Shown one piece after another: positions 20,421 to 33,608 of a stretch of 64,000 nucleotides of DNA. This DNA comes from Spirosoma sp. KCTC 42546. Lineage in GTDB: Bacteria; Bacteroidota; Bacteroidia; Cytophagales; Spirosomataceae. Position numbers and translations under genes: made by a program. The notes beneath the pieces are model-generated. The model did no database searches and was not told the DNA's origin. It saw nothing but the letters and a program-made list of their open reading frames with translations. The first letter of the stretch is position 1. Every line of letters starts with the position of its first letter. The DNA is taken from positions 8,288,501 to 8,352,500 of the forward strand of contig NZ_CP041360.1 of assembly GCF_006965485.1 (NCBI RefSeq). The letters are read 5' to 3'.

Positions 20421-22604
20421 ATGAACAACAATTATTTTCTAGTATGTCTGCTAACGTTGGGGCTGGTTGCTGTTAGCTCAAGAACCACTGCCCAGACTAG
20501 CAGTCAAGTACTCAAAATTACCTACCCAGAAAGTAGGGCAATATTTCAACGTGAAAATGATAATACCAGCACAATCTATTTGTCAGGTAGCATTTATCAA
20601 CCCATTGATAGTGTTCAGGCACGAGTTCAGGCAGAAGAAAATGGGCAGGGTTTAAATACGGAATGGGTTACTATTCAGCGAAATCCACAAGGTGGAATTT
20701 TCCAAGGTTCAGTGCGCGCAAAAGGAGGATGGTATCGCCTAGAAGTACAGGCATTTGTTGGCGGTAAAGCGGTTGGTACAGACGTTGTTCGTAAAGTTGG
20801 TATTGGCGAAGTCTTTATTATAACTGGCCAGTCGAACGCACAGGGCTTTCAGAATTATGGCGCTTTGGGAGCAGCTGATGATCGGGTTAACTGCGTATCG
20901 TATGATAACATTACGGCTAACTCACTTGCTGACCCTCCAGCTCCAACCTTTCAACAGCTTAGTGCTACATCAATTATTGGGCCACGTGGGCAGAGTGCCT
21001 GGTGTTGGGGCGTTTTGGGTGATCTGATTGTGAAGCAGTACGGCGTTCCGGTTTTGTTTATCAATACTGCCTGGTCAGCAACAATTATTAAAAACTGGCA
21101 TGACAGCGCTGATGGCCTACTTGCTAAAAATATTTTTGCGATTGGCACTCCCGACGAAAACTTTCCGGTTGGCATGCCCTATGCTAATCTAGTAATTGCC
21201 CTTCGCTACTATTGCTCTCTTCAGGGTCTACGTGCAGTGTTATGGCAACAGGGCGAAACAGATAATGTACCCCTACATTCCAGCCGAAAAGACTATGCGG
21301 ATAATATGCAATACATAGTCAATAAAACCCGTGCGGATACAGAGCGTTACCCAGCCTGGGTTCTGGCAAGATCATCGTATAATGATGGGCAGGTAAGTCA
21401 GGATATTATTCAAGCACAGAACGATGTTATAAACACCTATAACAACAATGTTTTTGCTGGCCCATTTACTGATAACATTCAAATTCCCCGTTTTGATATT
21501 GTTCACTTCGGTAACCGGTCAACAAACAATCCAGGAGATAAAGGCCTGAATGATTTAGCACAAGCTTGGTTTTCTAGCCTGAACGCTGTTTTTTTTGCCA
21601 GTTCAAGGCCACTGCCACCTTTACCTCAGCCAGCCATTGCCGTTACTTGTGGTACATCCAATAGTAACCTGACCCTAAGTCTACCCGGATCGTACAAATC
21701 CTATACATGGAATTCTGGCCAGACAACACAGACAATTACGGTTAACCAACCGGGACTTTATAGAGCCGTGTTGAAAGATAGAAACGGGAATACGTATCTG
21801 TCGCCTGCTATTGAGGTACAAAGCCCAATTCAGCCAGCAACCCCAACTATTTCATTAGCCAGTCAGCCAGGGAAAGTAGTTGATAATCAGCAGCAAATCT
21901 GTGCGGACTCAACGTTATCACTCATTGCCAATACGTCTGCAAACAGTACAGGTTTATGGAGTCTGAGCACGACAAGTACCCTTAGCAAAACGATTGCCTT
22001 GACAAAATCCGGCAACTATTCTTTACAGGCTGTTAATGTATATGGTTGTAAATCTGTTCAACCAGCAATTGTTAGCCTAACGGTACGGCCCAAGGTTCCC
22101 ACACCCAGTATTGAACAAATTGGTGCCTATAGTTTACAGGCCGTGCTTCCTACACCAACAGGTGGCCAACCTGATTTATTCGATTGGCGACGAGCTGGTG
22201 GAGAAGTAATTCCGCAAACCAGTGCTGTTGTAAAAGTGGTTGTATCCGCTAACTATTCGGCTCGTGCCAAAACAACATTTACACTTTCTAATGGGAATAA
22301 TCTAACCTGCTACTCAGACTACAGTGCCCCTAAGGCATTTACATTTGACCGATCAAACGGGGGGCTGAGTATTTACCCAAACCCATCAACAACGGGGACC
22401 ATTACGATTGAAACGATTGAAAACCTGAAGAACGCAGATGTTGACGTGTTCTCGTTGAGCGGGCAAAAACTCTTCTCAACTCAGGTTCCAATTCTCGATG
22501 AACGTAAATCCATTGACCTCTCGGGTCTGTCACAAGGCATTTATTTGGTTCGGGTTCGTTCGGCGGGTTTTGATGTTTCCCGACGGATTATTATTAATCG
22601 ATAA
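20421..22604 (+). CDS. Secreted SGNH/sialate O-acetylesterase-like protein with T9SS tail (paralogue)
   Basis: The ATG at 20421 is preferred over an in-frame TTG 69 bp upstream because it opens a signal peptide (NYFLVCLLTLGLVAVSS... TTAQ). The 727-residue product has the same architecture as the preceding gene: beta-sandwich, SGNH domain with GQSN nucleophile Ser138 and WQQGETDN (Gln where the paralogue has His), a HFGN catalytic-His region, about two Ig-like modules instead of six, and a type A T9SS sorting domain (LSIYPNPSTTG ... SRRIIINR). The two genes probably arose by duplication with change in module number. Expected role: surface deacetylation of a glycan. Confidence 0.86.
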   Translation: MNNNYFLVCLLTLGLVAVSSRTTAQTSSQVLKITYPESRAIFQRENDNTSTIYLSGSIYQPIDSVQARVQAEENGQGLNTEWVTIQRNPQGGIFQGSVRAKGGWYRLEVQAFVGGKAVGTDVVRKVGIGEVFIITGQSNAQGFQNYGALGAADDRVNCVSYDNITANSLADPPAPTFQQLSATSIIGPRGQSAWCWGVLGDLIVKQYGVPVLFINTAWSATIIKNWHDSADGLLAKNIFAIGTPDENFPVGMPYANLVIALRYYCSLQGLRAVLWQQGETDNVPLHSSRKDYADNMQYIVNKTRADTERYPAWVLARSSYNDGQVSQDIIQAQNDVINTYNNNVFAGPFTDNIQIPRFDIVHFGNRSTNNPGDKGLNDLAQAWFSSLNAVFFASSRPLPPLPQPAIAVTCGTSNSNLTLSLPGSYKSYTWNSGQTTQTITVNQPGLYRAVLKDRNGNTYLSPAIEVQSPIQPATPTISLASQPGKVVDNQQQICADSTLSLIANTSANSTGLWSLSTTSTLSKTIALTKSGNYSLQAVNVYGCKSVQPAIVSLTVRPKVPTPSIEQIGAYSLQAVLPTPTGGQPDLFDWRRAGGEVIPQTSAVVKVVVSANYSARAKTTFTLSNGNNLTCYSDYSAPKAFTFDRSNGGLSIYPNPSTTGTITIETIENLKNADVDVFSLSGQKLFSTQVPILDERKSIDLSGLSQGIYLVRVRSAGFDVSRRIIINR

Positions 22605-22621
22605 TTAATTCCACGCATTTT

Positions 22622-22662
22622 ACACCAAAAGCCTTTCGGTACCGAAAGGCTTTTGGTGTTTT
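22622..22662 (+). terminator. Perfect 38-bp palindromic terminator
   Basis: Bases 22622-22640 are the exact reverse complement of 22641-22659 with no spacer, followed by a T-run. It lies 18 bp after the second SGNH gene and separates it from the nuo operon. Confidence 0.92.
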
Positions 22663-22689
22663 CTACTGGTTTAGTCTCTGTATCAGGCA

Positions 22690-22719
22690 TTGGTTAAACA
22701 AGCCATTGTCGTATCTTTG
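22690..22719 (+). promoter_or_regulatory. Probable nuo operon promoter
   Basis: TTG at 22690-22692 and TATCTTTG at 22712-22719, 19 bp apart, match the Bacteroidota consensus. A second -7-like box, TACATTTG at 22779-22786, lies closer to nuoA but lacks a -33 element, so there may be two start sites. Confidence 0.7.
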
Positions 22720-22809
22720 AGTCATATTTAGTGTAGAGTAACGTAGACTCGCTATCGTGAGTCTATTGGTTTTATCGCTACATTTGCGCCGGTCTTCTCA
22801 ACTCATTGT

Positions 22810-23181
22810 ATGAACACAACTTATGTTCCGGCTGATTATTTGCCGGTGCTTATTCAGCTTGGTTTAGCTATTGGTTTCATCGTGGCAACCATGATTGCTA
22901 CCCATGCTCTTGGGCCAAAACGTCATAGCCAGAAAAAAGATGATCCATTCGAATGTGGTATCCCAGTACAGGGAGATGCACGCACCCCAATATCTATTAA
23001 GTATTTTCTGATTGCGATCCTATTCGTCCTGTTCGATGTGGAGGTGATCTTTTTATATCCCTGGGCAGTTAATTTTAAGGGCTTGGGCATGACCGGATTT
23101 GTTGAAATGGTCCTGTTTATGGGTTTACTCCTGGCAGGCTTCTATTACATCATCCGCAAGGGTATTCTCAAGTGGGAATAG
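22810..23181 (+). CDS. nuoA: NADH-quinone oxidoreductase subunit A
   Basis: A 123-residue complex I membrane subunit with three helices. The conserved KKDDPFECGIPVQGDARTPIS loop (given here as KDDPFECGIP and SIKYFLIAILFVLFDVEV) carries the family Cys and acidic residues on the cytoplasmic side, and FDVEVIFLYPWA is the third diagnostic stretch. It is the first gene of a ten-gene nuo cluster. The ATG at 22810 is the only reasonable start. Confidence 0.95.
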   Translation: MNTTYVPADYLPVLIQLGLAIGFIVATMIATHALGPKRHSQKKDDPFECGIPVQGDARTPISIKYFLIAILFVLFDVEVIFLYPWAVNFKGLGMTGFVEMVLFMGLLLAGFYYIIRKGILKWE

Positions 23182-23185
23182 GCCC

Positions 23186-23222
23186 TAACAAATGAATTTT
23201 AGAGCATATTTATTCGTTGTTA
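23186..23222 (+). repeat. nuoA-nuoB intergenic inverted repeat
   Basis: TAACAAATGAAT (23186-23197) pairs with ATTCGTTGTTA (23212-23222) with one bulge. This is the weakest of the nuo spacer hairpins. Confidence 0.5.
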
Positions 23223-23262
23223 TACTAACTAACTACAACCGCAACGGCGGACCGTGTTTTTT

Positions 23263-23808
23263 ATGGCAGCAGACATTAAATTGGCCGAAGCCCCCGCGAG
23301 TTATGATGGCCCAGGTTTCTCGGCTACTTCGTTTGATAAAATAATTGGGCTGGCTCGGGCAAATTCGCTCTGGCCCCTGCCGTTTGCAACCTCATGCTGT
23401 GGTATTGAATTTATGTCAACCATGGCCTCACACTACGATTTAGGCCGCTTTGGTGCTGAACGCCCCAGCTTCTCTCCACGTCAGGCAGATATGTTGCTTG
23501 TGGCAGGCACCATTGCCAAAAAGATGGGCCCTATTGTAAAGCAAGTCTATCTACAGATGGCCGAACCTCGCTGGGTTATTGCCATTGGTGCCTGTGCTTC
23601 TAGTGGAGGCATTTTCGATACTTATAGTGTTTTGCAGGGCATTGATCGCATTATTCCGGTTGACGTATACGTACCGGGTTGCCCTCCTCGCCCAGAACAG
23701 ATTCTGGATGGTGTACTTGCAGTACAGGAACTGGCAAAGAATGAGTCACTACGCCGGCGCAATACCGAAGAGTATCAGAAATTACTGAGTTCCTATAGTA
23801 TTCAATAA
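23263..23808 (+). CDS. nuoB: NADH-quinone oxidoreductase subunit B
   Basis: A 181-residue peripheral-arm subunit holding the last cluster, N2. Cluster ligands are visible in [17 protein letters not shown] and [11 protein letters not shown]. The tandem cysteines (CC) are the diagnostic N2 feature. The ATG at 23263 ([11 protein letters not shown]) is chosen over an in-frame GTG 9 bp upstream. It would dock onto NuoD and the membrane subunit NuoH and pass electrons to quinone. Confidence 0.95.
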
Positions 23809-23815
23809 ATGGAAG

Positions 23816-23864
23816 ATTGGTAAATGCATCTATACGACCAGAGTCGACTATAGCATCTACCAAT
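23816..23864 (+). repeat. nuoB-nuoC intergenic inverted repeat
   Basis: ATTGGTAAATGC (23816-23827) pairs with GCATCTACCAAT (23853-23864) with one G-T pair. Inside it, TATA segments and GTCGAC offer further pairing after a 3-nt bulge. It starts 8 bp after the nuoB stop. Confidence 0.65.
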
Positions 23865-23892
23865 TTACTTATCACTCACTCACTCATTGACG

Positions 23893-24393
23893 ATGCTGAC
23901 CAACGAAGAAGTTGCGCAGACAATTATTAACCAGTTTGGCGAGGCTGTTACAGACTTTGATGATCCGTATGACCTGCTAACCTGCTCAACCAGCCGCGAT
24001 CAGATCATTCTTTTGGTAACGTACCTGAAAGGTCATCAGACGTTACAATTTGGCTTCCTGACAGATATTACCGCGATTCATTACCCTGACTCGACTGGTA
24101 AGGAGTTCTGTGTAGTCTATCATTTACACAGTTTGACCAATAATTTCCGCTTACGGATCAAGGTCTATCTTACTGCCGATGATGTGCATATACCAACGAT
24201 GGTATCTCTATTCGCCAGTGCGAACTGGATGGAGCGAGAAACGTTCGATCTGTTTGGTATTATCTTCGACGGGCATCCTGACTTACGTCGGATTTTGAAT
24301 ATGGAGGAAATGGATTATCATCCCATGCGTAAAGAGTATCCGCTCGAAGACGGTACACGGGAAGATAAAATTGATGCATTGTTTGGACGATAA
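23893..24393 (+). CDS. nuoC: NADH-quinone oxidoreductase subunit C
   Basis: A 166-residue complex I 30-kDa subunit. The signature ERETFDLFGIIFDGHPDLRR (residues about 116-135) and YHPMRKEYPLE are typical. The ATG at 23893 is preferred over an in-frame TTG two codons earlier. NuoC is a separate protein here and not fused to NuoD, as usual outside Enterobacteria. It has a structural role in the peripheral arm. Confidence 0.94.
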   Translation: MLTNEEVAQTIINQFGEAVTDFDDPYDLLTCSTSRDQIILLVTYLKGHQTLQFGFLTDITAIHYPDSTGKEFCVVYHLHSLTNNFRLRIKVYLTADDVHIPTMVSLFASANWMERETFDLFGIIFDGHPDLRRILNMEEMDYHPMRKEYPLEDGTREDKIDALFGR

Positions 24394-24398
24394 CAACT

Positions 24399-24471
24399 AG
24401 CGAAAGAGCGAACGAGTGAAAGCACGGAAATCCATTTGCCAGCCACTCTTTCACTCATTCGCTCTTTCGCT
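24399..24471 (+). repeat. nuoC-nuoD intergenic inverted repeat, 24-bp arms
   Basis: Bases 24399-24422 pair with 24448-24471 with one mismatch around a 25-nt loop. The arm is itself an 8-bp degenerate tandem repeat (GCGAAAGA, GCGAACGA, GTGAAAG). It starts 6 bp after the nuoC stop and ends 9 bp before the nuoD ATG, filling the gap. Confidence 0.85.
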
Positions 24472-24480
24472 CTTTATATT

Positions 24481-25713
24481 ATGGTTTCTGAAGAACTAGA
24501 CATAGCGAATAAAAATCTGCCTGCCGAGCAAGGCCCGGTTCAGTATGTTAATGAGCTAACAACGCTTAACCTCGGTCCCACTCACCCCGCTACACACGGG
24601 ATTTTCCAGAACATCCTGCAAATGGATGGGGAGAAAATCGTGTCGGGCGAGCAAACAATTGGGTATATCCACCGGGCATTTGAGAAGATTGCCGAGCGAC
24701 GACCATTCTACCAGATCACGACGCTTACCGACCGGATGAACTATTGTTCGTCACCCATTAATAACATGGGCTGGCACATGACCGTCGAGAAATTGCTGGG
24801 TATCGATATTCCAAAACGAGCCCAGTATATCCGAGTAATTATGATGGAGTTGGCTCGTTTGGCCGATCACCTCATTTGTAACGGTATTCTGGGTGTTGAC
24901 ACCGGTGCTTTTACCGGCTTCCTCTATATCTATCAGGAACGGGAGAACATCTATGAAATCTACGAAGAAGTTTGTGGTGCTCGACTAACCACAAATATGG
25001 GTCGTATTGGTGGCATGGAGCGTGATCTCTCCCCTACTGCCATTCGCAAAATCAATGAATTGCTGGTTCGTTTCCCCAAAGTACTGGCTGAGTTCGAAAA
25101 CCTCTTCAACCGTAACCGGATTTTCATGGACCGTGTTATTGGGGTGGGTGGCATTTCGGCAGAACGTGCTTTGAGTTACGGATTTACGGGCCCTAACCTC
25201 CGGGCGGCTGGCGTGGATTATGATGTACGCGTTATGAACCCGTATTCCTCGTACCAGGATTTTGAATTCGACATTCCAGTTGGTCAAAGTGGTGATACTT
25301 ACGACCGCTTCATGGTTCGGAACGAGGAAATGTGGCAGAGTTTGCGCATCATCAAGCAGGCAATGGATAATCTGCCGCAAGGACCCTACTACGCCGACGC
25401 CCCCCAGTACTATCTGCCTCCTAAACAGGAAGTCTATAAAAACATGGAAGCCCTTATCTATCACTTCAAGATTGTGATGGGTGAAATAGACGCTCCCGTC
25501 GGCGAAGTCTATCATGCTGTTGAAGGTGGTAATGGTGAGTTAGGGTTCTACCTGATTAGTGATGGTGGCCGTGCTCCTTATCGGTTGCACTTCCGCCGTC
25601 CATGTTTTATTTATTATCAGGCATATCCTGAAATGTGCAAAGGCCTGACCTTATCAGATGCCATTGTGATTATGAGTAGCATGAATGTAATTGCTGGCGA
25701 ACTGGATGCGTAA
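24481..25713 (+). CDS. nuoD: NADH-quinone oxidoreductase subunit D
   Basis: A 410-residue 49-kDa subunit that forms the quinone pocket with NuoB. The motif LGPTHPATHG is near residue 35, and the family pattern EKIAERRPFYQ, GWHMTVEKLLGI and EVYHAVEGGNGELGFYL are all present. The ATG at 24481 is chosen because the longer TTG-started frame would lie in the upstream hairpin. nuoE follows 15 bp later. Confidence 0.96.
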   Translation: MVSEELDIANKNLPAEQGPVQYVNELTTLNLGPTHPATHGIFQNILQMDGEKIVSGEQTIGYIHRAFEKIAERRPFYQITTLTDRMNYCSSPINNMGWHMTVEKLLGIDIPKRAQYIRVIMMELARLADHLICNGILGVDTGAFTGFLYIYQERENIYEIYEEVCGARLTTNMGRIGGMERDLSPTAIRKINELLVRFPKVLAEFENLFNRNRIFMDRVIGVGGISAERALSYGFTGPNLRAAGVDYDVRVMNPYSSYQDFEFDIPVGQSGDTYDRFMVRNEEMWQSLRIIKQAMDNLPQGPYYADAPQYYLPPKQEVYKNMEALIYHFKIVMGEIDAPVGEVYHAVEGGNGELGFYLISDGGRAPYRLHFRRPCFIYYQAYPEMCKGLTLSDAIVIMSSMNVIAGELDA

Positions 25714-25728
25714 ATCCTGCCGAAACGT

Positions 25729-26229
25729 ATGATAACAGACAATAACTCCGCCGTACAATTCACGCCCGAACGATTAGCAAAAGCAAAGGAAATTATTGCC
25801 CGCTATCCCGAAGGAAAACAGAAATCAGCCCTATTACCCCTCTTGCATGTATTGCAGGAGCAGGAAGGCTGGACCAGTCCCGAAGGTATGGATTATGTAG
25901 CAAGAATGCTTGATATTCAACCCATTGAGGTTTACGAAGTGGCGTCGTTCTACACTATGTATCACCTCAATCCGGTTGGCAAGCATGTTATTGAATATTG
26001 CCGAACGGGCCCTTGCTGCTTAATGGGGGGCGAAGAAGTATACGCCCATCTGAAACAGCGACTTGGCATTGATACGGGTCAAACGACCGTTGATGGGCAG
26101 TTCACCCTTAAAGAAGTAGAATGCCTTGCTGCTTGTGGTATGGGTCCCGTATTTCAGATTCGGGAGAAATATTACATGCACCTCACCAACGAGCGCGTGG
26201 ACGAAATCATTGACGAACTGTCGAAATAA
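25729..26229 (+). CDS. nuoE: NADH-quinone oxidoreductase subunit E
   Basis: A 166-residue thioredoxin-like subunit with the [2Fe-2S] cluster N1a. Ligands are the two Cys in CRTGPCCLMGG and the two in CLAACGMGP. It pairs with NuoF in the NADH-oxidising module. The gene is separated from nuoF by only 9 bp, one of the two nuo junctions with no spacer hairpin. Confidence 0.95.
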   Translation: MITDNNSAVQFTPERLAKAKEIIARYPEGKQKSALLPLLHVLQEQEGWTSPEGMDYVARMLDIQPIEVYEVASFYTMYHLNPVGKHVIEYCRTGPCCLMGGEEVYAHLKQRLGIDTGQTTVDGQFTLKEVECLAACGMGPVFQIREKYYMHLTNERVDEIIDELSK

Positions 26230-26238
26230 CCTCCCCCC

Positions 26239-27579
26239 ATGGCTACCAAAATTTTAACTGAACATATCAACGTTCCCGGCATTGAAACCTTCGATGTATA
26301 CCGGAAGCAAGGCGGCTATACCGCTGTTGAGAAGGCAATAAAGACAATGACTCCCGAGTCTATTGTCGAAGAAGTAAAAAAAGCGGGGGTGCGCGGCCGG
26401 GGTGGCGCGGGCTTCCCGATGGGTATGAAGTGGAGCTTTCTGGCTAAGCCAGAGGGTGTTCCCCGTTACCTGGTCTGTAATGCTGATGAATCGGAACCCG
26501 GTACATTTAAGGACCACTATCTGATGAAGAACATTCCCCACTTACTTATTGAGGGAATGATTATTTCATCGTTCGCATTAGGTGCCAACAAGTCGTTCAT
26601 CTATGTGCGGGGTGAGTTAATGTATGTGATTCATATCCTTGAAAAAGCCATTGCTGAAGCAAAAGCAAAAGGATTTCTGGGTAAGAATATTCTGGGCTCT
26701 GGTTACGACCTTGAGCTGGTCGTACAACCAGGTGGAGGAGCTTATATCTGTGGCGAAGAAACCGCTCTGCTCGAATCATTAGAAGGTAAACGCGGCAATC
26801 CACGGAACAAACCGCCGTTCCCAGCCGTAAAAGGCTTATATCAAAGTCCAACAGTTGTTAACAATGTTGAATCCATTGCCACAACAGCCTGGATAGTGAA
26901 TAATGGCGGAGAGGCTTACGCCGGTATCGGTATCGGGCGTAGCACGGGTACGAAGTTAATTTCAGCTTCAGGCCACATCAATAAACCCGGTGTGTATGAA
27001 ATTGAACTCGGCGTTCCAGTTGAAGACTTTATTTATGCCGATGAGTGGTGCGGAGGTATTCGTCCGGGCCATAAGTTCAAGGCACTGGTAGCGGGAGGAT
27101 CATCAGTGCCCATTTTACCAGCTAACTTAGCGTTGACACTGGCTAATGGCGAAAAGCGTTTGATGTCTTACGAGTCACTTTCGGATGGTGGTTTCGCAAC
27201 AGGCACTATGCTTGGCTCGGGTGGTTTTATACTTTTCGATGAAACATCCTGCATTGTTCGGAACACCTGGAACTTCTCACGCTTCTACCATCACGAATCC
27301 TGTGGACAATGTAGTCCCTGCCGTGAAGGAACGGGCTGGATGGAGAAAGTTCTGCATCGTATTGAATACGGTCACGGCCATCAGCAGGATATTGATCTGC
27401 TAGTTGACGTAGCCAAAAAGATCGAAGGAAATACAATTTGCCCGCTCGGCGACGCAGCGGCCTGGCCCGTTGCCAGTGCAATTCGGCACTTCCGGGATGA
27501 GTTCCAATGGCACATCGACCACCCGTCCGAAGCAACTCAACCGGGTGCGGTCTATCGGGGAGAAATGGCATTGGTATAA
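26239..27579 (+). CDS. nuoF: NADH-quinone oxidoreductase subunit F
   Basis: A 446-residue NADH-binding flavoprotein. The glycine-rich NADH motif GRGGAGFPMGMKW starts near residue 54, FMN-binding residues lie in NADESEPGTFKD and GGGAYICGEETAL, and the N3 [4Fe-4S] ligands are in ESCGQCSPCREG plus a later Cys (NTICPLGD). It accepts hydride from NADH and feeds electrons to the Fe-S chain. Confidence 0.97.
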   Translation: MATKILTEHINVPGIETFDVYRKQGGYTAVEKAIKTMTPESIVEEVKKAGVRGRGGAGFPMGMKWSFLAKPEGVPRYLVCNADESEPGTFKDHYLMKNIPHLLIEGMIISSFALGANKSFIYVRGELMYVIHILEKAIAEAKAKGFLGKNILGSGYDLELVVQPGGGAYICGEETALLESLEGKRGNPRNKPPFPAVKGLYQSPTVVNNVESIATTAWIVNNGGEAYAGIGIGRSTGTKLISASGHINKPGVYEIELGVPVEDFIYADEWCGGIRPGHKFKALVAGGSSVPILPANLALTLANGEKRLMSYESLSDGGFATGTMLGSGGFILFDETSCIVRNTWNFSRFYHHESCGQCSPCREGTGWMEKVLHRIEYGHGHQQDIDLLVDVAKKIEGNTICPLGDAAAWPVASAIRHFRDEFQWHIDHPSEATQPGAVYRGEMALV

Positions 27580-27585
27580 TGTAAC

Positions 27586-27635
27586 GCGGCCGGAAAGCCG
27601 TGCAATACTTAATTGACCTGTGGCTTTCCAGCCGC
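27586..27635 (+). repeat. nuoF-nuoG intergenic inverted repeat
   Basis: GCGGCCGGAAAGCC (27586-27599) pairs with GGCTTTCCAGCCGC (27622-27635) with one mismatch. G-U pairs may extend it inward. It begins 6 bp after the nuoF stop and ends 10 bp before the nuoG ATG. Confidence 0.8.
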
Positions 27636-27645
27636 ACTACGATAT

Positions 27646-28731
27646 ATGGAAGACGTAAAGCCGCAATTACTTAAAGTCACGATTGACGGAATTGAAGTTG
27701 AAGTCGAGCCGGGTACAACCATTTTGCAGGCCGCTCGTAAAATTGGACCAGCAGTTGCTCCTCCGGCTATGTGTTACTATCAGCCACTAAAAGGTAGTGG
27801 CGGTAAATGCCGGGCTTGTTTGGTGCGTGTTGCAGCGGGGTCAGCTAAAGATCCTCGCCCGATGCCCAAACTGGTGGCTTCCTGTCTGACAGCTGTGCAG
27901 GATGGTATGATTGTCGAAAACGAAACCAGCCCACAGGTTATTGACGCCCGAAATGGTGTAGTTGAGTTCTTGTTGCTCAATCACCCGCTCGATTGCCCCG
28001 TTTGTGATCAGGCTGGCGAGTGCGATCTCCAGAACTTTGCGTTTGACCACGGCAAATCCACAACTCGTTACGAAGAAGACCGTCGGACGTTCGAGAAGAA
28101 GGACATTGGTCCCTATATTCAGTTGCACATGACGCGTTGCATTCTGTGCTATCGTTGTGTGTACACGGCTGATCAAATCACCAACAAGCGCGTTCACGGT
28201 GTATTGGGCCGGGGTGATGCCTCTGAAATTGGTACCTACATCGAAAAAGCGATTGACAATGATTTCTCGGGCAACGTCATTGACGTATGCCCGGTTGGTG
28301 CATTGACGGATAAAACCTATCGGTTCAAAAATCGGGTGTGGTTTTCTAAACCCGTTGACGCACATCGTGATTGCCCAACCTGCTCGGGGAAAGTTACACT
28401 TTGGTACCGGGGCGAAGATGTAATTCGGGTAACGGCCCGTAAGAATGAGTGGAGCGAAGTACTGGAGTTCATCTGCAATACCTGCCGGTTTGACATGAAG
28501 AAAACTAGTGATTGGACAATTGAAGGCCCAACGAAGATCTCCCGGAGTTCGGTTATTTCGGCTAACAAATATCGGGCTGATACCATAAAACCAAGCTTTG
28601 GCCAACGTTTAGCCGCTGCCGAATATAAGTCTATTCATGATGAGCGGGATACGTCGCAATTGGGTATTAAACAATTAGCCCCAGAACGTTTTGCGAAGGT
28701 ATTGCCATCAGCTTTGGACCCAGAACCTTGA
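27646..28731 (+). CDS. nuoG: Short NuoG-type iron-sulfur subunit
   Basis: A 361-residue protein, less than half the length of E. coli NuoG. The N-terminal [2Fe-2S] domain (CYYQPLKGSGGKCRACLV) is followed by the His-Cys3 cluster motif HPLDCPVCDQAGEC and a [4Fe-4S] motif CILCYRC...CPVGAL. The large molybdopterin-like C-terminal domain is missing. Only a start remains (CPTCSGK ... CNTCRFD), resembling a Molybdop_Fe4S4 segment with a missing cysteine. Short NuoG is usual in Bacteroidota complex I. The ATG at 27646 is preferred because the TTG 33 bp upstream lies inside the hairpin. Confidence 0.92.
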   Translation: MEDVKPQLLKVTIDGIEVEVEPGTTILQAARKIGPAVAPPAMCYYQPLKGSGGKCRACLVRVAAGSAKDPRPMPKLVASCLTAVQDGMIVENETSPQVIDARNGVVEFLLLNHPLDCPVCDQAGECDLQNFAFDHGKSTTRYEEDRRTFEKKDIGPYIQLHMTRCILCYRCVYTADQITNKRVHGVLGRGDASEIGTYIEKAIDNDFSGNVIDVCPVGALTDKTYRFKNRVWFSKPVDAHRDCPTCSGKVTLWYRGEDVIRVTARKNEWSEVLEFICNTCRFDMKKTSDWTIEGPTKISRSSVISANKYRADTIKPSFGQRLAAAEYKSIHDERDTSQLGIKQLAPERFAKVLPSALDPEP

Positions 28732-28753
28732 GAAATTAATCAGGTATATGGTT

Positions 28754-28828
28754 TACAGTTTTCGAAATTTGATTGGCTAACGCATCAATAGCAATCTTGC
28801 GTTAGCCAACTAAATACCGAAAACTGTA
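28754..28828 (+). repeat. nuoG-nuoH intergenic inverted repeat, 31-bp arms
   Basis: Bases 28754-28784 pair with 28798-28828 with four mismatches in 31, around a 13-nt loop. The inner 13 bp and outer 11 bp are perfect. It lies 22 bp after the nuoG stop and 19 bp before the nuoH ATG. No T-run follows. Confidence 0.88.
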
Positions 28829-28847
28829 CATCGAAAACTTTTTAAAA

Positions 28848-30002
28848 ATGGACTTAACCATATTACTCGTTAAAGGAATCATTATCCTTGCGATTTTCGC
28901 GATAACGCTCGGCATTGCTGCGTACTCTACGTATGCTGAGCGCAAGGTGGCAGCCTTTTTACAGGATCGTATCGGCCCAAACCGAGCGGGTCCGTTTGGG
29001 CTTTTACAACCCCTTGCCGACGCGGGAAAAATGTTTTTCAAAGAAGACTTTATTCCAGCTCAGGCCAGCAAGTGGCTGTTTATTCTTGGTCCCTGCTTAG
29101 CCATGCTAACGGCTTTGATGTCGAGTGCAGTCATTCCTTTTGGCGACACCATCAAATTTGGCAACTATGCCATTCCGGTACAGGCTATTGAAATTAACAT
29201 TGGCGTGCTGTATATCTTCGGCGTCGTTTCGTTGGGCGTCTACGGCGTTATGGTGGGTGGTTGGGCATCAAATAACAAATTCTCGTTGTTAGGTGCTATT
29301 CGGGCTGCTTCGCAAAATATCAGCTATGAAATTGCGCTGGGCCTATCGCTTATTGCCATTTTGATGATGAGCGGCTCCTTGTCGCTAAAGGCGATAATTG
29401 ATGAGCAGGCTACATTTTTTGAGTGGAATATTTTCACCCAGCCCTTAGGCTTTATTATTTTCCTGACCTGCTCCTTTGCCGAATGTAACCGTACCCCCTT
29501 CGATTTGCCTGAGTGCGAAACGGAACTCGTTGGTGGTTATCATACCGAATACAGTTCAATGAAACTGGGCTTCTATTTATTCGCCGAATACATCAATATG
29601 TTTGTTTCCTCGGCGTTTATTTCGGCGCTATATTTTGGCGGTTTCCACTACCCATTCATGAATGAAGTGGGGCAGGCGCTTGAAAAATCGCTAGGCACCA
29701 TAACAGGACATAATGTGGCAACTGCCCTTGGTGTTATTGTTTATTTCGGTAAGATCTTCTTTTTCATTTTCTTTTACATGTGGGTTCGCTGGACGCTTCC
29801 TCGTTTCCGGTACGACCAACTTATGAATTTGGGCTGGAAAACATTTATCCCGCTGGCGATCCTTAATGTTGTACTAACCGGCGCAGGCTTACTGTACAAT
29901 TTCAAATATGCAACCTGGCTAATTGCCATTGTGATGATTGTATTGGCTGTAACCTCAACGGCTCGTGCACCAAAACGAGATATTATTCCTCAGCAGTCAT
30001 AA
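28848..30002 (+). CDS. nuoH: NADH-quinone oxidoreductase subunit H
   Basis: A 384-residue membrane subunit at the junction of the two arms, with eight or nine helices. Diagnostic motifs are AYSTYAERKVAAFLQDRIGPNR (ERK..A..Q.R.GPNR), LLQPLADAGKMFFKED, and SFAECNRTPFDLPECETELV with its acidic loop at the quinone entrance. It is slightly longer than the E. coli protein because of a C-terminal extension. Confidence 0.95.
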   Translation: MDLTILLVKGIIILAIFAITLGIAAYSTYAERKVAAFLQDRIGPNRAGPFGLLQPLADAGKMFFKEDFIPAQASKWLFILGPCLAMLTALMSSAVIPFGDTIKFGNYAIPVQAIEINIGVLYIFGVVSLGVYGVMVGGWASNNKFSLLGAIRAASQNISYEIALGLSLIAILMMSGSLSLKAIIDEQATFFEWNIFTQPLGFIIFLTCSFAECNRTPFDLPECETELVGGYHTEYSSMKLGFYLFAEYINMFVSSAFISALYFGGFHYPFMNEVGQALEKSLGTITGHNVATALGVIVYFGKIFFFIFFYMWVRWTLPRFRYDQLMNLGWKTFIPLAILNVVLTGAGLLYNFKYATWLIAIVMIVLAVTSTARAPKRDIIPQQS

Positions 30003-30009
30003 CTATTGA

Positions 30010-30059
30010 GTAGGGAGTGTTCAGTAATAATGGTTGATTAATGGCTGATCATTCTCTAC
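30010..30059 (+). repeat. nuoH-nuoI intergenic inverted repeat
   Basis: Bases 30010-30028 and 30041-30059 form a 19-position stem with two mismatches and three G-U pairs around a 12-nt loop. Because G-U pairs are tolerated in RNA, the fold is more convincing at transcript level. Confidence 0.6.
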
Positions 30060-30073
30060 TAACCACTACGTTT

Positions 30074-30640
30074 ATGCAACTAACAAATCGCTCTAAACAG
30101 GTCAGTAACAAGGAAATGACCCTGGCGGAGAAGATGTACTTACCTGCGGTTATTGGCGGGTTAGCCATCACTATTCGCCACTTTTTCCGGAAGAAGCCGA
30201 CTATTCAATACCCAGAAGTAAAAAAATATCTTGGCCCTATCTATCGGGGGCATCATATTTTGAAACGAGATGAGCAAGGTCGCGAACGTTGCACAGCTTG
30301 TGGCTTGTGTGCGGTTGCCTGCCCGGCAGAAGCGATTTCGATGGTGGCGGCCGAGCGCAAAAAAGGCGAAGAAAGCTTATATCGAGAAGAGAAATATGCA
30401 GCTGTGTATGAGATCAATATGCTTCGCTGCATCTTCTGCGGATTGTGCGAAGAAGCTTGTCCCAAACAGGCTGTTTATTTACGCCACGACCAAATGGTCC
30501 CCGTTTTTCAGGAACGTGACGAGGTTATTTATGGCAAAGATAAACTGGTTGAGAAGATGGACGACCGGTATATCCGGGCTAATAACTCCGAAGTAAAGAC
30601 GACGCCAACCGAACCTAGCCTAACACGAGCCGCGACCTAA
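30074..30640 (+). CDS. nuoI: NADH-quinone oxidoreductase subunit I
   Basis: A 188-residue ferredoxin-like subunit with two [4Fe-4S] motifs, CTACGLCAVACPAEAI and CIFCGLCEEACPKQAV (clusters N6a and N6b). The ATG at 30074 (MQLTNRSKQV) is chosen. An ATG 33 bp upstream lies inside the hairpin and would add an unusual leader. The C-terminal region after the second cluster is typical for Cytophagales. Confidence 0.94.
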   Translation: MQLTNRSKQVSNKEMTLAEKMYLPAVIGGLAITIRHFFRKKPTIQYPEVKKYLGPIYRGHHILKRDEQGRERCTACGLCAVACPAEAISMVAAERKKGEESLYREEKYAAVYEINMLRCIFCGLCEEACPKQAVYLRHDQMVPVFQERDEVIYGKDKLVEKMDDRYIRANNSEVKTTPTEPSLTRAAT

Positions 30641-30644
30641 AAAC

Positions 30645-30723
30645 TGTCATTTATTGTCATTAAGTAGTCTCAAAGCAGTAATGCTAATGACAATTAATGG
30701 CGATCTAATGACAAAAAATGACA
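30645..30723 (+). repeat. nuoI-nuoJ intergenic inverted repeat
   Basis: Bases 30645-30662 pair with 30706-30723 with one mismatch. TGTCATT occurs twice in the first arm, and its complement AATGACA occurs three times between 30680 and 30725, so alternative foldings are possible. It begins 5 bp after nuoI and ends 9 bp before nuoJ. Confidence 0.8.
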
Positions 30724-30731
30724 ACATTTTT

Positions 30732-31286
30732 ATGACTGAGACATTTAATTTTTTTAAAACACTAACGCCCACCGGCTACCTATTCCTACTCCTGACAGTC
30801 ATCACCCTGTTCAGTGCCATTGGTGTTGTAACCGCAAGAAACCCTATTTATAGCGTTCTAGCCCTCATTGCTACGTTCTTCTGCTTGTCTGGTCATTACA
30901 TATTATTGAACGCTCAGTTCTTGGCTGCGGTCAATATTATCGTTTATGCTGGGGCTATTATGGTCTTGTTTCTGTTCACCATCATGTTCCTGAATTTACG
31001 GAAAGAGGATGAAGAGTCGAAGACTAACCTGACAAAGATGATATCTGTAGTGGTTGGTGGTGTGTTAATGGTGATGCTCATCACTATTTTCCGGGCTAAA
31101 AGTGCTCAGGTGCCAACCGTTAATTCAGCAACGTTTAGCTCTAAAACAGGGTTGGTTGAGAACTTGGGCCAGTTACTTTACAGCGACTATATTTTGCCCT
31201 TTGAATTAGCGTCAATCCTCTTCATCATTGCTATGGTCGGTGCAGTTATGCTCGGTAAGCGCGAAGCAGGCGACCGGCATTTCTGA
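30732..31286 (+). CDS. nuoJ: NADH-quinone oxidoreductase subunit J
   Basis: A 184-residue, five-helix membrane subunit with the NPIYSVLALIATFF and VNIIVYAGAIMVLFLFTIM motifs, including the helix that carries the pi-bulge. The ATG at 30732 is preferred over an in-frame TTG at 30654 because the extension would be encoded by the hairpin. It is the last nuo gene here: nuoK, L, M and N do not follow. Confidence 0.94.
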   Translation: MTETFNFFKTLTPTGYLFLLLTVITLFSAIGVVTARNPIYSVLALIATFFCLSGHYILLNAQFLAAVNIIVYAGAIMVLFLFTIMFLNLRKEDEESKTNLTKMISVVVGGVLMVMLITIFRAKSAQVPTVNSATFSSKTGLVENLGQLLYSDYILPFELASILFIIAMVGAVMLGKREAGDRHF

Positions 31287-31327
31287 CCAGGATTCATGTG
31301 ATTTTATTGACTGACGTTGATTAATTG

Positions 31328-31354
31328 TAAGCCGCTCGATGAGCGGCTTATTTT
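31328..31354 (+). terminator. Terminator ending the nuo transcript
   Basis: TAAGCCGCTC (31328-31337) pairs with GAGCGGCTTA (31341-31350) around GAT, followed by TTTTG. It lies 41 bp after nuoJ, supporting a real operon end here. Confidence 0.88.
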
Positions 31355-31432
31355 GTTCGTGGAGTATGAATAAATATTAGGTGCTTTATGTCAAAAGGAG
31401 ATAATTTAGTTAAACATAGTCCCATTCATTCT

Positions 31433-32305
31433 ATGGTAAGATTCTTACTGCTTATATGTGTTCTTGGCCTGAGCATTGCATCGGCACAAAAGCCATTATT
31501 AACTGACTCCATTCTAGTGGAAGGGCATTATCGAACCTTTCATTTTATAAAACCAGCGAAAGCAAATTCATCATTAATTTTCATTTTGCACGGTTCGGGA
31601 GGAAATGGAGAAGGAGCCCGAAAAGGTGCGGAAAAGCTGGAAGAAAAATCAGACAGTGAAAATTTGTTGCTGGTTTACCCAGATGGCTATAAGCGCTATT
31701 GGAATGAATGTCGTAAAACGGCAAACTCGGTAGCCAATAAAGAGGACATCAATGAAAATGCTTTTTTTGGCGAAATGATCAACTATTTCACCAAAAAGTA
31801 CCAAATCAATACAAAGCAGGTTTTCGCGGTGGGTACATCCGGCGGTGGACATATGGCCTATAAACTCGCATTGACAATGCCCGAAAAATTTCGGGCGATA
31901 ACTGCCCTGATTGCTAATCTTCCGGATACGAACAACCTGGATTGCCCCGAAAAAAGAATTGCGGTCCCGGTCATGATTGTGAATGGTACGGCCGATCAGA
32001 CAAATCCCTATGAAGGCGGGGAAGTTATAACTGGCACAATTAGTATGGGACTTGTTCGGTCAACCGAGCGCACATTCCATTATTGGGCAGATTTGGCAGG
32101 CTACAAAAAACAGCCGCTCAAAGAATTATTACCCGATACCGATCCGAATGATCACAAAACTATTGAGCGGTATACCTACAAAGAGAAAGGCAAACCAGAG
32201 GTTACGTTATTAAAAGTAATTGGAGGTAAACACGACTATCCGAACGACATTAATGTCTACCTCGAAGCCTGGGATTTCTTCAAAAGGCAGCTAACTCAAC
32301 CCTGA
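31433..32305 (+). CDS. Exported alpha/beta-hydrolase esterase (PHB depolymerase/feruloyl esterase-like)
   Basis: The start at 31433 is chosen because MVRFLLLICVLGLSIASAQ is a classic signal peptide. An upstream in-frame ATG at 31388 is also possible. The roughly 290-residue product has the LpqC/PHB-depolymerase-like layout: oxyanion loop ILHGSGGNGEG, nucleophile elbow GTSGGGHMAY, acid in NGTADQTNP, and catalytic His in GGKHDYPND. Such enzymes release short-chain or feruloyl esters from polymers. The substrate is not evident from context. It stands alone between the nuo terminator and the thiolase. Confidence 0.85.
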   Translation: MVRFLLLICVLGLSIASAQKPLLTDSILVEGHYRTFHFIKPAKANSSLIFILHGSGGNGEGARKGAEKLEEKSDSENLLLVYPDGYKRYWNECRKTANSVANKEDINENAFFGEMINYFTKKYQINTKQVFAVGTSGGGHMAYKLALTMPEKFRAITALIANLPDTNNLDCPEKRIAVPVMIVNGTADQTNPYEGGEVITGTISMGLVRSTERTFHYWADLAGYKKQPLKELLPDTDPNDHKTIERYTYKEKGKPEVTLLKVIGGKHDYPNDINVYLEAWDFFKRQLTQP

Positions 32306-32318
32306 ACCATTGTAGTTT

Positions 32319-32358
32319 CCAAAGAAAAATAGTATGCTTGCATAATAATTTTCTTTGG
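32319..32358. promoter_or_regulatory. Palindromic operator upstream of thiolase
   Basis: A 19+2+19 palindrome with two mismatches. Its core is AGTATGC at 32331-32337, TT, and GCATAAT at 32340-32346, and its flanks extend as CCAAAGAAA / TTTCTTTGG. The same core occurs twice upstream of the acyl-CoA dehydrogenase at 44.55-44.62 kb. The 22-bp core is 32328-32349. It is probably the binding site of a TetR-type or similar fatty-acid regulator not encoded in this window. Confidence 0.7.
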
Positions 32359-32429
32359 AGGTAATTATTCAGTTCAAAAATTGGTTATTCTGTTAATTTC
32401 CTGCTTAACCAGTAAATAACATTGCTTTT

Positions 32430-33608
32430 ATGGACGCATACATTGTAGCCGGATACCGTACTGCAGTGGGAAAAGCCCCACGTGGAGGTCTCCGTTTCAC
32501 CCGCCCCGACGATATGGCGGCTGAAGTAATCAAGCATTTATTAAGCCAGGTACCTAACCTCGATCCGGCTCGTGTTGAAGATCTAATTGTAGGGAATGCA
32601 GTTCCCGAAGCCGAACAAGGCATGCAGATTGCCCGGTATATTGCGTTGCTCTCCTTGCCGAATAGCGTACCGGGTATGACCATAAATCGGTATTGTGGTT
32701 CAGGGTTGGAAGCAATTGCGATTGCATCGGCCAAAATCCACGCTGGACTAGCCGACTGTATCATTGCCGGAGGCACCGAATCAATGTCGCTGGTACCCGT
32801 AATGGGCTGGAAAACGGCACTGAATTACGAAATCGCCAAAGAACACCCAGACTATTATATCGGTATGGGTCTTACGGCTGAACAAGTTGCTCAACAGTTC
32901 AAAATCAGCCGTGATGCGCAGGATGAATTTGCCCTGGAATCACATCAGAAAGCATTAGCAGCCCAGAAGGAAGGAAAATTCACCGACGAAATTGTGCCCA
33001 TCAAGGTAAGCGAAACTTACTTCGACGCAGAAAGTAACAAAAAGAAAACCCGTGAATGGACCGTCACGCAAGATGAAGGCCCACGTAAAGACACCAGCGC
33101 CGAAGGTCTGGCTAAGCTAAAGCCTGTGTTTGCGGCTGGTGGCTCAGTAACTGCCGGTAATTCGTCGCAAACATCAGACGGAGCCGCTTTTGTGGTTGTC
33201 ATGTCGGAGCGGTTAGTCAATGAACTGAATTTAAAGCCGGTTGCTCGCATGGTTTCTTACGCTACAGCAGGTGTTGAACCTAAAATTATGGGAATTGGGC
33301 CTGTTGCCGCCATTCCTATTGCGCTCAAAAAGTCGGGCTTAAAGCAAGACGATATTGATTTAATTGAGCTAAACGAAGCCTTTGCGGCTCAGTCGCTGGC
33401 AGTTATTCAGGAATTAGGCCTTGACCGCAGCAAGATTAATCCGAATGGTGGAGCAATTGCTTTAGGCCATGCGCTCGGCTCAACGGGTGCTCGGTTATCA
33501 GTGCAATTGTTAAACGAAATGCGTCGTCGTGACCAAAAATATGGAATGGTGTCTGCCTGTGTAGGCGGTGGCCAGGGCGTTGCCGGGATTTTTGAACGGC
33601 TTAATTAA
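32430..33608 (+). CDS. Acetyl-CoA C-acyltransferase (thiolase)
   Basis: A 392-residue thiolase. The acyl-accepting Cys89 is in [11 protein letters not shown], His347 in [16 protein letters not shown], and the base Cys377 in CVGGGQG, all at standard positions. It probably performs the last step of fatty-acid beta-oxidation (thiolytic cleavage of 3-ketoacyl-CoA), though acetoacetyl-CoA synthesis cannot be excluded. The upstream operator it shares with an acyl-CoA dehydrogenase supports beta-oxidation. No partner hydratase/dehydrogenase is adjacent. Confidence 0.93.

Follow-up and report, generated by a model that had tools for sequence, protein, structure and literature searches.

Palindromes behind stop codons, repetitive extragenic palindromic (REP) sequences arranged as REPINs (REP doublets forming hairpins), and hairpins rewritten by template switching are already known. 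REPINs are described with constant outer 16-mers and a variable centre (PMC3116915, PMC3733652), and the combination of loop inversion and arm homogenisation is attributed to template switching between inverted repeats, in yeast (PMC8604942) and in RNA hairpins (PMC8794818). The idea is not new for bacteria, because PMC8604942 cites earlier work on the inverted repeats of proteobacteria and PMC4060949, with citations, names template switching among the causes of an excess of inverted repeats. The present analysis deals with the hairpins between the genes nuoA and nuoJ of Spirosoma sp. KCTC 42546, which lie on the + strand of a window of 64,000 nucleotides (positions 8,288,501-8,352,500 of the 8.66 Mb contig NZ_CP041360.1); the nearest named locus is one of Emticicia, at 85% identity.

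The nuo hairpins are, with moderate confidence, local representatives of the intergenic palindromes that occur throughout the genome in this genus and family, the arms of which are kept complementary mainly by template switching at the DNA level. They probably do not form a device peculiar to nuo. Copies of these palindromes are dispersed, a constant tip is surrounded by different arms in two genomes, and the same tip occupies different nuo spacers in different species. Moreover, close relatives differ by loop inversions bounded by the arms and by concerted changes of both arms.

Hairpins in the nuo spacers

The spacers from nuoA to nuoJ measure 81 bp (A-B), 84 bp (B-C), 87 bp (C-D), 15 bp (D-E), 9 bp (E-F), 66 bp (F-G), 116 bp (G-H), 71 bp (H-I), and 91 bp (I-J), and nuoG starts with the ATG at 27646. 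A preliminary description, the coordinates of which were correct on checking, proposed that every gap wider than about 40 bp is filled by its own inverted repeat, and that only D-E and E-F, where the genes are indeed 9-15 bp apart, are without one. The minimum free energy of each spacer was compared with 500 dinucleotide shuffles, with F-G folded with one extra base, and six of the seven spacers above 40 bp fold significantly better than their shuffles. The hairpins, all on the + strand, reach p 0.002 each in C-D (24399..24471, arms 24399-24427 and 24443-24471, 25 pairs, z -8.2), F-G (27580..27641, arms 27580-27606 and 27612-27641, 23 pairs, z -5.3), G-H (28736..28845, arms 28736-28784 and 28798-28845, 40 pairs, z -8.2), H-I (30009..30060, arms 30009-30031 and 30037-30060, 20 pairs, z -4.1), and I-J (30645..30713, arms 30645-30677 and 30682-30713, 25 pairs, z -5.6). 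The B-C hairpin (23811..23869, arms 23811-23838 and 23843-23869, 23 pairs) is weaker than the other five, with z -2.7 and p 0.014. The main stems of the nuo inverted repeats span 11-40 pairs, close to the 10-31 bp per arm first reported.

The rule for gaps above 40 bp holds for these six spacers and fails at one of the seven, because the A-B repeat is no stabler than chance: an 11-pair inverted repeat is present (23186..23222, + strand), with z +0.1 and p 0.51. Across 35 genus genomes, with only spacers of 30-160 bp counted, A-B reaches p<=0.01 in none and p<=0.05 in 5. The A-B repeat lies within a sequence element conserved across the genus (35 aligned). A stretch of about 45 nt (TGAATTTT..CATATTTATTCGTTG..) in this spacer (23182-23262) is conserved in most of the genus, as compared with 34 relatives; it has no stable hairpin, and an open reading frame in it is not consistent among the relatives. 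An additional 16-bp CGCAACGGCGGACCGT is found in the A-B spacer of this genome and of some relatives.

Chance pairing in short spacers would suit A-B, but it is refuted for the five spacers with p 0.002 in 500 shuffles, B-C stands at p 0.014, and coding windows reach z<=-3 in just 2/362 cases. As an account of the nuo hairpins, chance is close to impossible. A known Rfam family was also considered for them and rejected, as a search of positions 22000-32500 gave five weak miRNA-type matches, all far under the gathering threshold.

Hairpins in the rest of the genome and in the clade

The genome-wide sample comprises 0.92 of the 8.66 Mb, with genes called by a home-made program and a hairpin defined as z<=-3. 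As the gene caller shifted the starts of nuoB, nuoI, and nuoJ, four nuo hairpins are in the genome-wide set, and H-I and I-J are not. Co-directional spacers carry a hairpin in 117 of 261 cases at 30-200 bp and in 84 of 150 at 60-130 bp. Convergent spacers do so in 49/60 cases and divergent spacers in 5/41, beside the 2/362 of coding windows. A similar pipeline applied to 200 kb of E. coli, with a coding coverage of 0.75, finds hairpins in 9/35 co-directional, 7/8 convergent, and 0/10 divergent spacers.

The nuo spacers of 60-200 bp except A-B (those of the genus kept at 30-160 bp, thus with an upper limit of 160 bp) reach z<=-3 in 107/153 cases in the genus, 24/43 (20 loci) in other genera of the family, and 14/77 in other Bacteroidota; for A-B the respective counts are 0/34, 0/8, and 7/23. 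One genome (G026), with nuoF cut by a contig end, was left out. The counts by spacer class, together with those for the genus, family, and Bacteroidota, place the trait with the clade and the type of spacer more than with nuo. The hairpins exceed chance but do not exceed the genome background: they are stronger than shuffled spacers everywhere except at A-B, and other spacers carry hairpins at about the same frequency (the 84/150 given above). A structural rule particular to nuo is thus not supported.

The 117 co-directional hairpins begin a median of 5 nt past the stop codon and end a median of 22 nt before the next start. The 5' arm is G-rich (86 to 20), a feature that reads alike on either strand of a palindrome. 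This position fits RNA intercistronic stabilisers, which would block 3' exonucleases or mark processing sites and so give each cistron its own stability, with arms that co-vary by selection on the RNA stem; operons with selective RNA processing and stabilisation (SRPS) are known from Clostridium (PMC8219983). However, the number of strong nuo hairpins per genome varies from 0 to 6 of six among 35 genomes with patchy presence among species, their order of strength is unconserved (Kendall W 0.10, in the 20 genomes where each of the six spacers measures 30-160 bp), and the density of hairpins is similar in the rest of the genome. The earlier suggestion that the hairpins set subunit ratios is unsupported, because such a role predicts a conserved order of strength.

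Palindrome families and the constant tip

The hairpins had been described as sharing no sequence and as not being a repeat family. The former is true among the seven and yet misleading, as C-D, G-H, and I-J match elsewhere in the genome; the latter does not hold for C-D and G-H and is questionable for F-G. In a BLAST search of the genome, with the query itself included in the counts, C-D has at least 50 matches among those listed (with both strands and partial matches to an arm included, and 40 of the 73 candidates scored), G-H has 5, and I-J has 4, three of these being partial matches elsewhere. The arms of C-D (24399..24471, + strand) consist of units of about 8 nt, GAGCGAAA/GAGTGAAA, and make it a member of a dispersed theme; a hairpin at S0:28829 with the same arm theme carries GTGGCTGACGC. 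The arms of I-J consist of TGTCATT units of about 10 nt.

The best defined family is that of the GGCTGACGC tip, with a stem GGCTGACGC/GCGTCAGCC and a loop of 5-18 nt. The tip of G-H, TTGGCTAACGCA...TGCGTTAGCCAA (within 28736..28845, + strand), belongs to it with one mismatch on each side and is not an exact copy, and C-D, a possible member, has GCCAGCC at its right loop edge and is more than two mismatches away from the tip stem. The exact tip hairpin occurs at 21 sites in this genome and at 100 sites in 11 of 18 genus genomes. Beyond the genus it is found in 5 other genomes of the family (61, 50, 3, 2, and 1 sites) and at a single site in each of 7 genomes from another family, so that 23 of 390 genomes have it overall; the backwards control has one site in the 390. 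Two genomes of genus g8, G042 and G088, have 50 and 61 exact tip hairpins, above any of the 18 genus genomes searched, and of two more g8 genomes one has a single site and the other has none.

At hairpin centres, GGCTGACGC with at most one mismatch is present in 11/171 cases, compared to 1/93 hairpin-free spacers and 3/339 coding windows. With at most two mismatches the counts are 22/171, 2/93, and 32/339, and, given the rate in coding windows, hairpins can be told from coding DNA by the strict core alone. The paired tip with at most two mismatches occurs at 4 places in the 0.92 Mb sample, including one within a gene; the controls have 0 and 2. An exact 13-mer, AGTTGGCTGACGC, has 111 matches in 19 of 36 genus genomes, 12 of them in this genome. 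Its controls vary widely (backwards 19, scramble 2, backwards scramble 34 matches), and the paired-tip pattern is therefore the better evidence. Ten copies of AGTTGGCTGACGC were inspected in this genome and ten in G024; with about two exceptions, they form long complementary arms when folded by eye. The arms around this same tip differ, with GTTTGAR-like units in this genome and GAGTTRTA-like units in G024. In the nuo spacers, the tip with at most one mismatch is located in G-H of G000 and G024 and in H-I of G032 and G006; matches at exactly two mismatches (in G-H, H-I, and long cargo-bearing spacers) are at the expected chance level or not judgeable and are not counted. The dispersal of the tip family is thus visible from the positions of its copies.

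F-G differs in consisting of two inverted REP-like units headed by GTAG or GTAA. In this genome GTAG stands at the right end, as the reverse complement, and GTAA at the left, and G006 has GTAG at both ends. A search for such units with at most 4 mismatches in the 0.92 Mb sample gave 4 matches, one in a gene and one being F-G itself, compared to 0 in two controls, which leaves two further intergenic relatives; stretches of G001 and G022 gave 0 matches against 1 each in the controls. By its sequence F-G resembles a GTAG-tagged REP dimer, and the high copy number by which REP and REPIN elements are recognised is not seen in it, as BLAST at E<=0.001 finds F-G only. The genome has five Y1_Tnp matches. 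Other spacer palindromes (S8.0:365734, S3.0:133024, S8.0:178879, and S3.0:139238) carry GTCATTCCGACGA..AGGAATCT, CGCAAAG, and CACAGAG themes and resemble repeats known from many bacteria.

The constant tip at many places, its presence within one mismatch in different nuo spacers of different species, the GTAG heads of F-G, and the five Y1_Tnp matches would all be expected from transposition alone. In that case REP-like elements or miniature inverted-repeat transposable elements would be mobilised in trans by Y1 transposases of the RAYT type (REP-associated tyrosine transposases) and inserted in spacers, the hairpin would serve as the signal for transposition, and the changes in the arms would be new insertions. 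Nevertheless, three of the six nuo hairpins match only themselves in the genome, and the comparison of close relatives given below bears on this reading from both sides.

Change between close relatives

Two close pairs, G004/G005 and G001/G022, were compared over 200 kb each, with loop inversion scored in spacers of 30-250 bp that differ in length by at most 40 bp. An inversion of the loop bounded by the arms explains at least two differences in 13 of 121 hairpins (7/70 in G004/G005 and 6/51 in G001/G022), and in 9 of the 13 it explains at least three. Off-centre inversions do so in 0/121 hairpins and non-hairpin spacers in 0/34; the off-centre control replaced a first one that overlapped the palindrome centres and gained at least two in 4/75 versus 7/75. 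The loop of the nuo C-D hairpin itself is inverted between G004 and G005.

The strict stems number 86 in one direction. Of their 42 double changes, 36 leave a Watson-Crick pair in place, about 15 times (10-20) what independent change would give, and 15 of the 36 belong to a type with no route through G-U. Loops in this comparison change 1.7 times faster than flanks. The strict-stem comparison, both directions taken together, left out 138 cases that lacked a strict stem, 22 for their length, and 5 that did not align. At wider distances, single changes in the nuo hairpins keep pairing at 0.46 versus 0.37 in the null, and the stems change at 0.141 versus 0.214 in the rest of the spacer; these counts are non-independent, as pairs are counted in both directions and many share genomes. 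Pairing is thus conserved above chance in close relatives while the sequence changes, and the preliminary description, which had named the lack of such conservation as a refutation, is not refuted on this point.

Loop inversion together with arm homogenisation is the pattern reported for template switching between inverted repeats, which is the reason to place the renewal of complementarity at the DNA level. The earlier suggestion that some palindrome-making mechanism acts in spacers and leaves the hairpins as a by-product is in line with these inversions, the concerted changes of the arms, and the absence of a clear RNA-strand signature. An inversion of the loop within matching arms is not an insertion and hence speaks against transposition alone. 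The presence of whole palindromes in one relative only speaks for it: in the orthologous spacers g4:182242 and g4:26800 of G004/G005 the palindrome is found in one species (91 bp versus 8 bp, and an extra hairpin of about 80 bp, respectively). On balance, transposition alone is an unlikely explanation.

Strand test and terminators

Mismatches of the G-U and A-C types are balanced in the stems, with 292:300 in the co-directional set of this genome, 207:203 in nuo of the genus, 43:51 in nuo of the family, and 266:264 in 183 stems without a T-run. The strand test has some, weak power, because the ratio in strong T-tailed stems was 25:12 (p 0.047) or 39:25 (p 0.10), depending on the threshold; the same class in E. 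coli gave 8:2 and 2:0 at two thresholds. RNA stabilisers gain from the pairing kept above chance at wider distances and in strict stems, and from a depletion of single changes in strict stems. They lose from the lack of a clear G-U preference over A-C, from the 15 of 36 double changes that are not of the G-U type, and from the occurrence of loop inversions. With the unconserved order of strength also weighed, selection for RNA stabilisers is an unlikely main cause of the arms.

Hairpins are commonest in convergent spacers (49/60), as intrinsic terminators would be, and such terminators or attenuators could trim the transcript between the nuo genes. A terminator scan of positions 22500-31500 gives 17 T-tailed sites versus 9.0 expected. 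The longest stem (22622..22659, + strand, 17 pairs and a T-run) is at the operon border before nuoA and an 11-pair stem with a T-run (31327..31351, + strand) at the border after nuoJ, and the rest lie before nuoA or within genes. None is called in the internal nuo spacers, with the scan limited to loops of 3-8 so that C-D and G-H could not be called. By reading of the sequence, no T-run follows directly past any internal nuo stem and a TTTTT is present within the outer right arm of G-H, in agreement with the earlier remark that the hairpins mostly lack T-runs. Genome-wide, 102 co-directional hairpins have a tail that can be read, and it is T-rich (>=60% T in the next 8 nt) in 12 of them. Intrinsic termination or attenuation between the nuo genes was rejected on these grounds and is very unlikely.

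Proposed origin and maintenance

Template switching at dispersed palindromes, the favoured explanation, would operate as follows. Several palindrome families would land in spacers behind stop codons, including the GGCTGACGC-tip family with quasi-periodic, species-specific arms (G-H and perhaps C-D), a REP-dimer-like family (F-G), and others. The complementarity of the arms would then be renewed mainly by switching of the DNA polymerase between the arms as templates, and not mainly by selection on the mRNA. Palindromes may persist where they are least harmful, with few in divergent spacers and none in A-B, which is filled by another conserved element; the D-E and E-F gaps are too short here. 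In nuo the hairpins would have at most a weak, general RNA effect such as 3' shielding or insulation.

Several results weigh against this explanation. Inverted GTAG/GTAA-headed units are conserved in F-G of about 20 of 21 aligned genomes (spacers of 50-75 bp), and conservation in place in about 20 species fits selection. B-C, F-G, and H-I have no match in the genome other than themselves (F-G at E<=0.001). No transposase is tied to the tip family, for which no search for co-occurring transposases was made. Single changes at paired positions of strict stems occur at 0.41 (0.30-0.55) of the flank rate, which purifying selection fits too; looser stems disagree, with a stem rate not below the flank rate (0.075 versus 0.064). 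In the reverse direction of the strict-stem comparison G-U exceeds A-C by 40:24. Finally, the strand test lacks power in places, as a loose terminator control has no bias (222:197 in this genome and 24:25 in E. coli) and a control on tRNA acceptor stems was mis-parsed and is void.

Periodic arms

The left arms of the co-directional set show excess identity at lags 7 (z 6.7) and 14 (z 7.0), and the nuo hairpins over the genus, which are related sequences, at lag 8 (z 12). Among arms of at least 20 nt in this genome, 59 of 148 have a significant period (7 nt in 34, 9 nt in 13, 8 nt in 9, 10 nt in 2, and 11 nt in 1), and arms of the convergent set have little periodicity. Local copying between neighbouring spacers was considered and rejected, since k-mer similarity has no clear fall with distance and 349 of 1000 permutations reach the observed value.

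A speculative and improbable extension is that the tip palindromes are a new dispersed element with a fixed 9-bp tip and with arms made of a degenerate unit of 7 or 8 nt written on both sides, species-specific, and coming and going in nuo among other places. If so, a short template, or repeated copying primed by the hairpin, would be the source of the arms, which would not merely be inherited. No description of a constant tip with species-specific periodic arms was found in open-licence papers.

Inserts in the nuo operons of relatives

Inserts of at least 250 bp lie between nuo genes in 15 of 34 relatives, chiefly in D-E and F-G, for instance in L033 and L059 (D-E), L049, L035, and L038 (F-G), and L031 (E-F). 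Six insert proteins scanned with Pfam comprise a HicB-like antitoxin, a ParE-like domain, and two DUF29 proteins, with a 507-aa and a 66-aa protein unmatched.

Comparison with known systems

The nuo hairpins have counterparts in several systems. Like GTAG REP sequences and REPINs (PMC3116915, PMC3733652), they are dispersed extragenic palindromes of two inverted halves in which compensatory changes are common, and F-G has the GTAG/GTAA heads at both outer ends with a span of about 66 bp. In contrast to REPINs, the tip family is built inside-out, with a constant centre and outer arms that are quasi-periodic and variable among species. The TAACTGA heptamer repeats (PMC4679880) are likewise short 7-nt units in spacers near start codons, but they are direct repeats of one exact heptamer, whereas the units here are degenerate, 7-10 nt long, placed in both arms of a palindrome, and of many sequences.

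The SRPS operons of Clostridium (PMC8219983) similarly have stem-loops between genes of the same operon; there, the strength of the stem serves for predicting stoichiometry, and here the order of strength is unconserved. The inverted repeats behind stop codons in Bacteria (PMC13155455) belong to the same class of position and also have loops that change faster than arms; rho-independent termination is invoked for them, whereas the hairpins here mostly lack a T-run.

Covariation in spacer stems is usually read as a sign of functional RNA. In this clade covariation alone could mislead, because the stems covary and yet loops invert, and mismatches are about equal on both strands. With its many copies and close relatives, the clade is a natural system for measuring template switching between inverted repeats in bacteria. 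The systems with template switching (PMC8794818, PMC8604942) share with the present hairpins the homogenisation of arms, compensatory changes of several bases, and inversion of the loop or spacer, as found here in the loop inversions (13/121 versus 0/121 and 0/34) and in the concerted changes of the arms (36/42). They concern RNA genes and, in yeast, coding genes, whereas the present hairpins occupy the spacers of bacterial operons, with inversions in about one-tenth of them in two species pairs.

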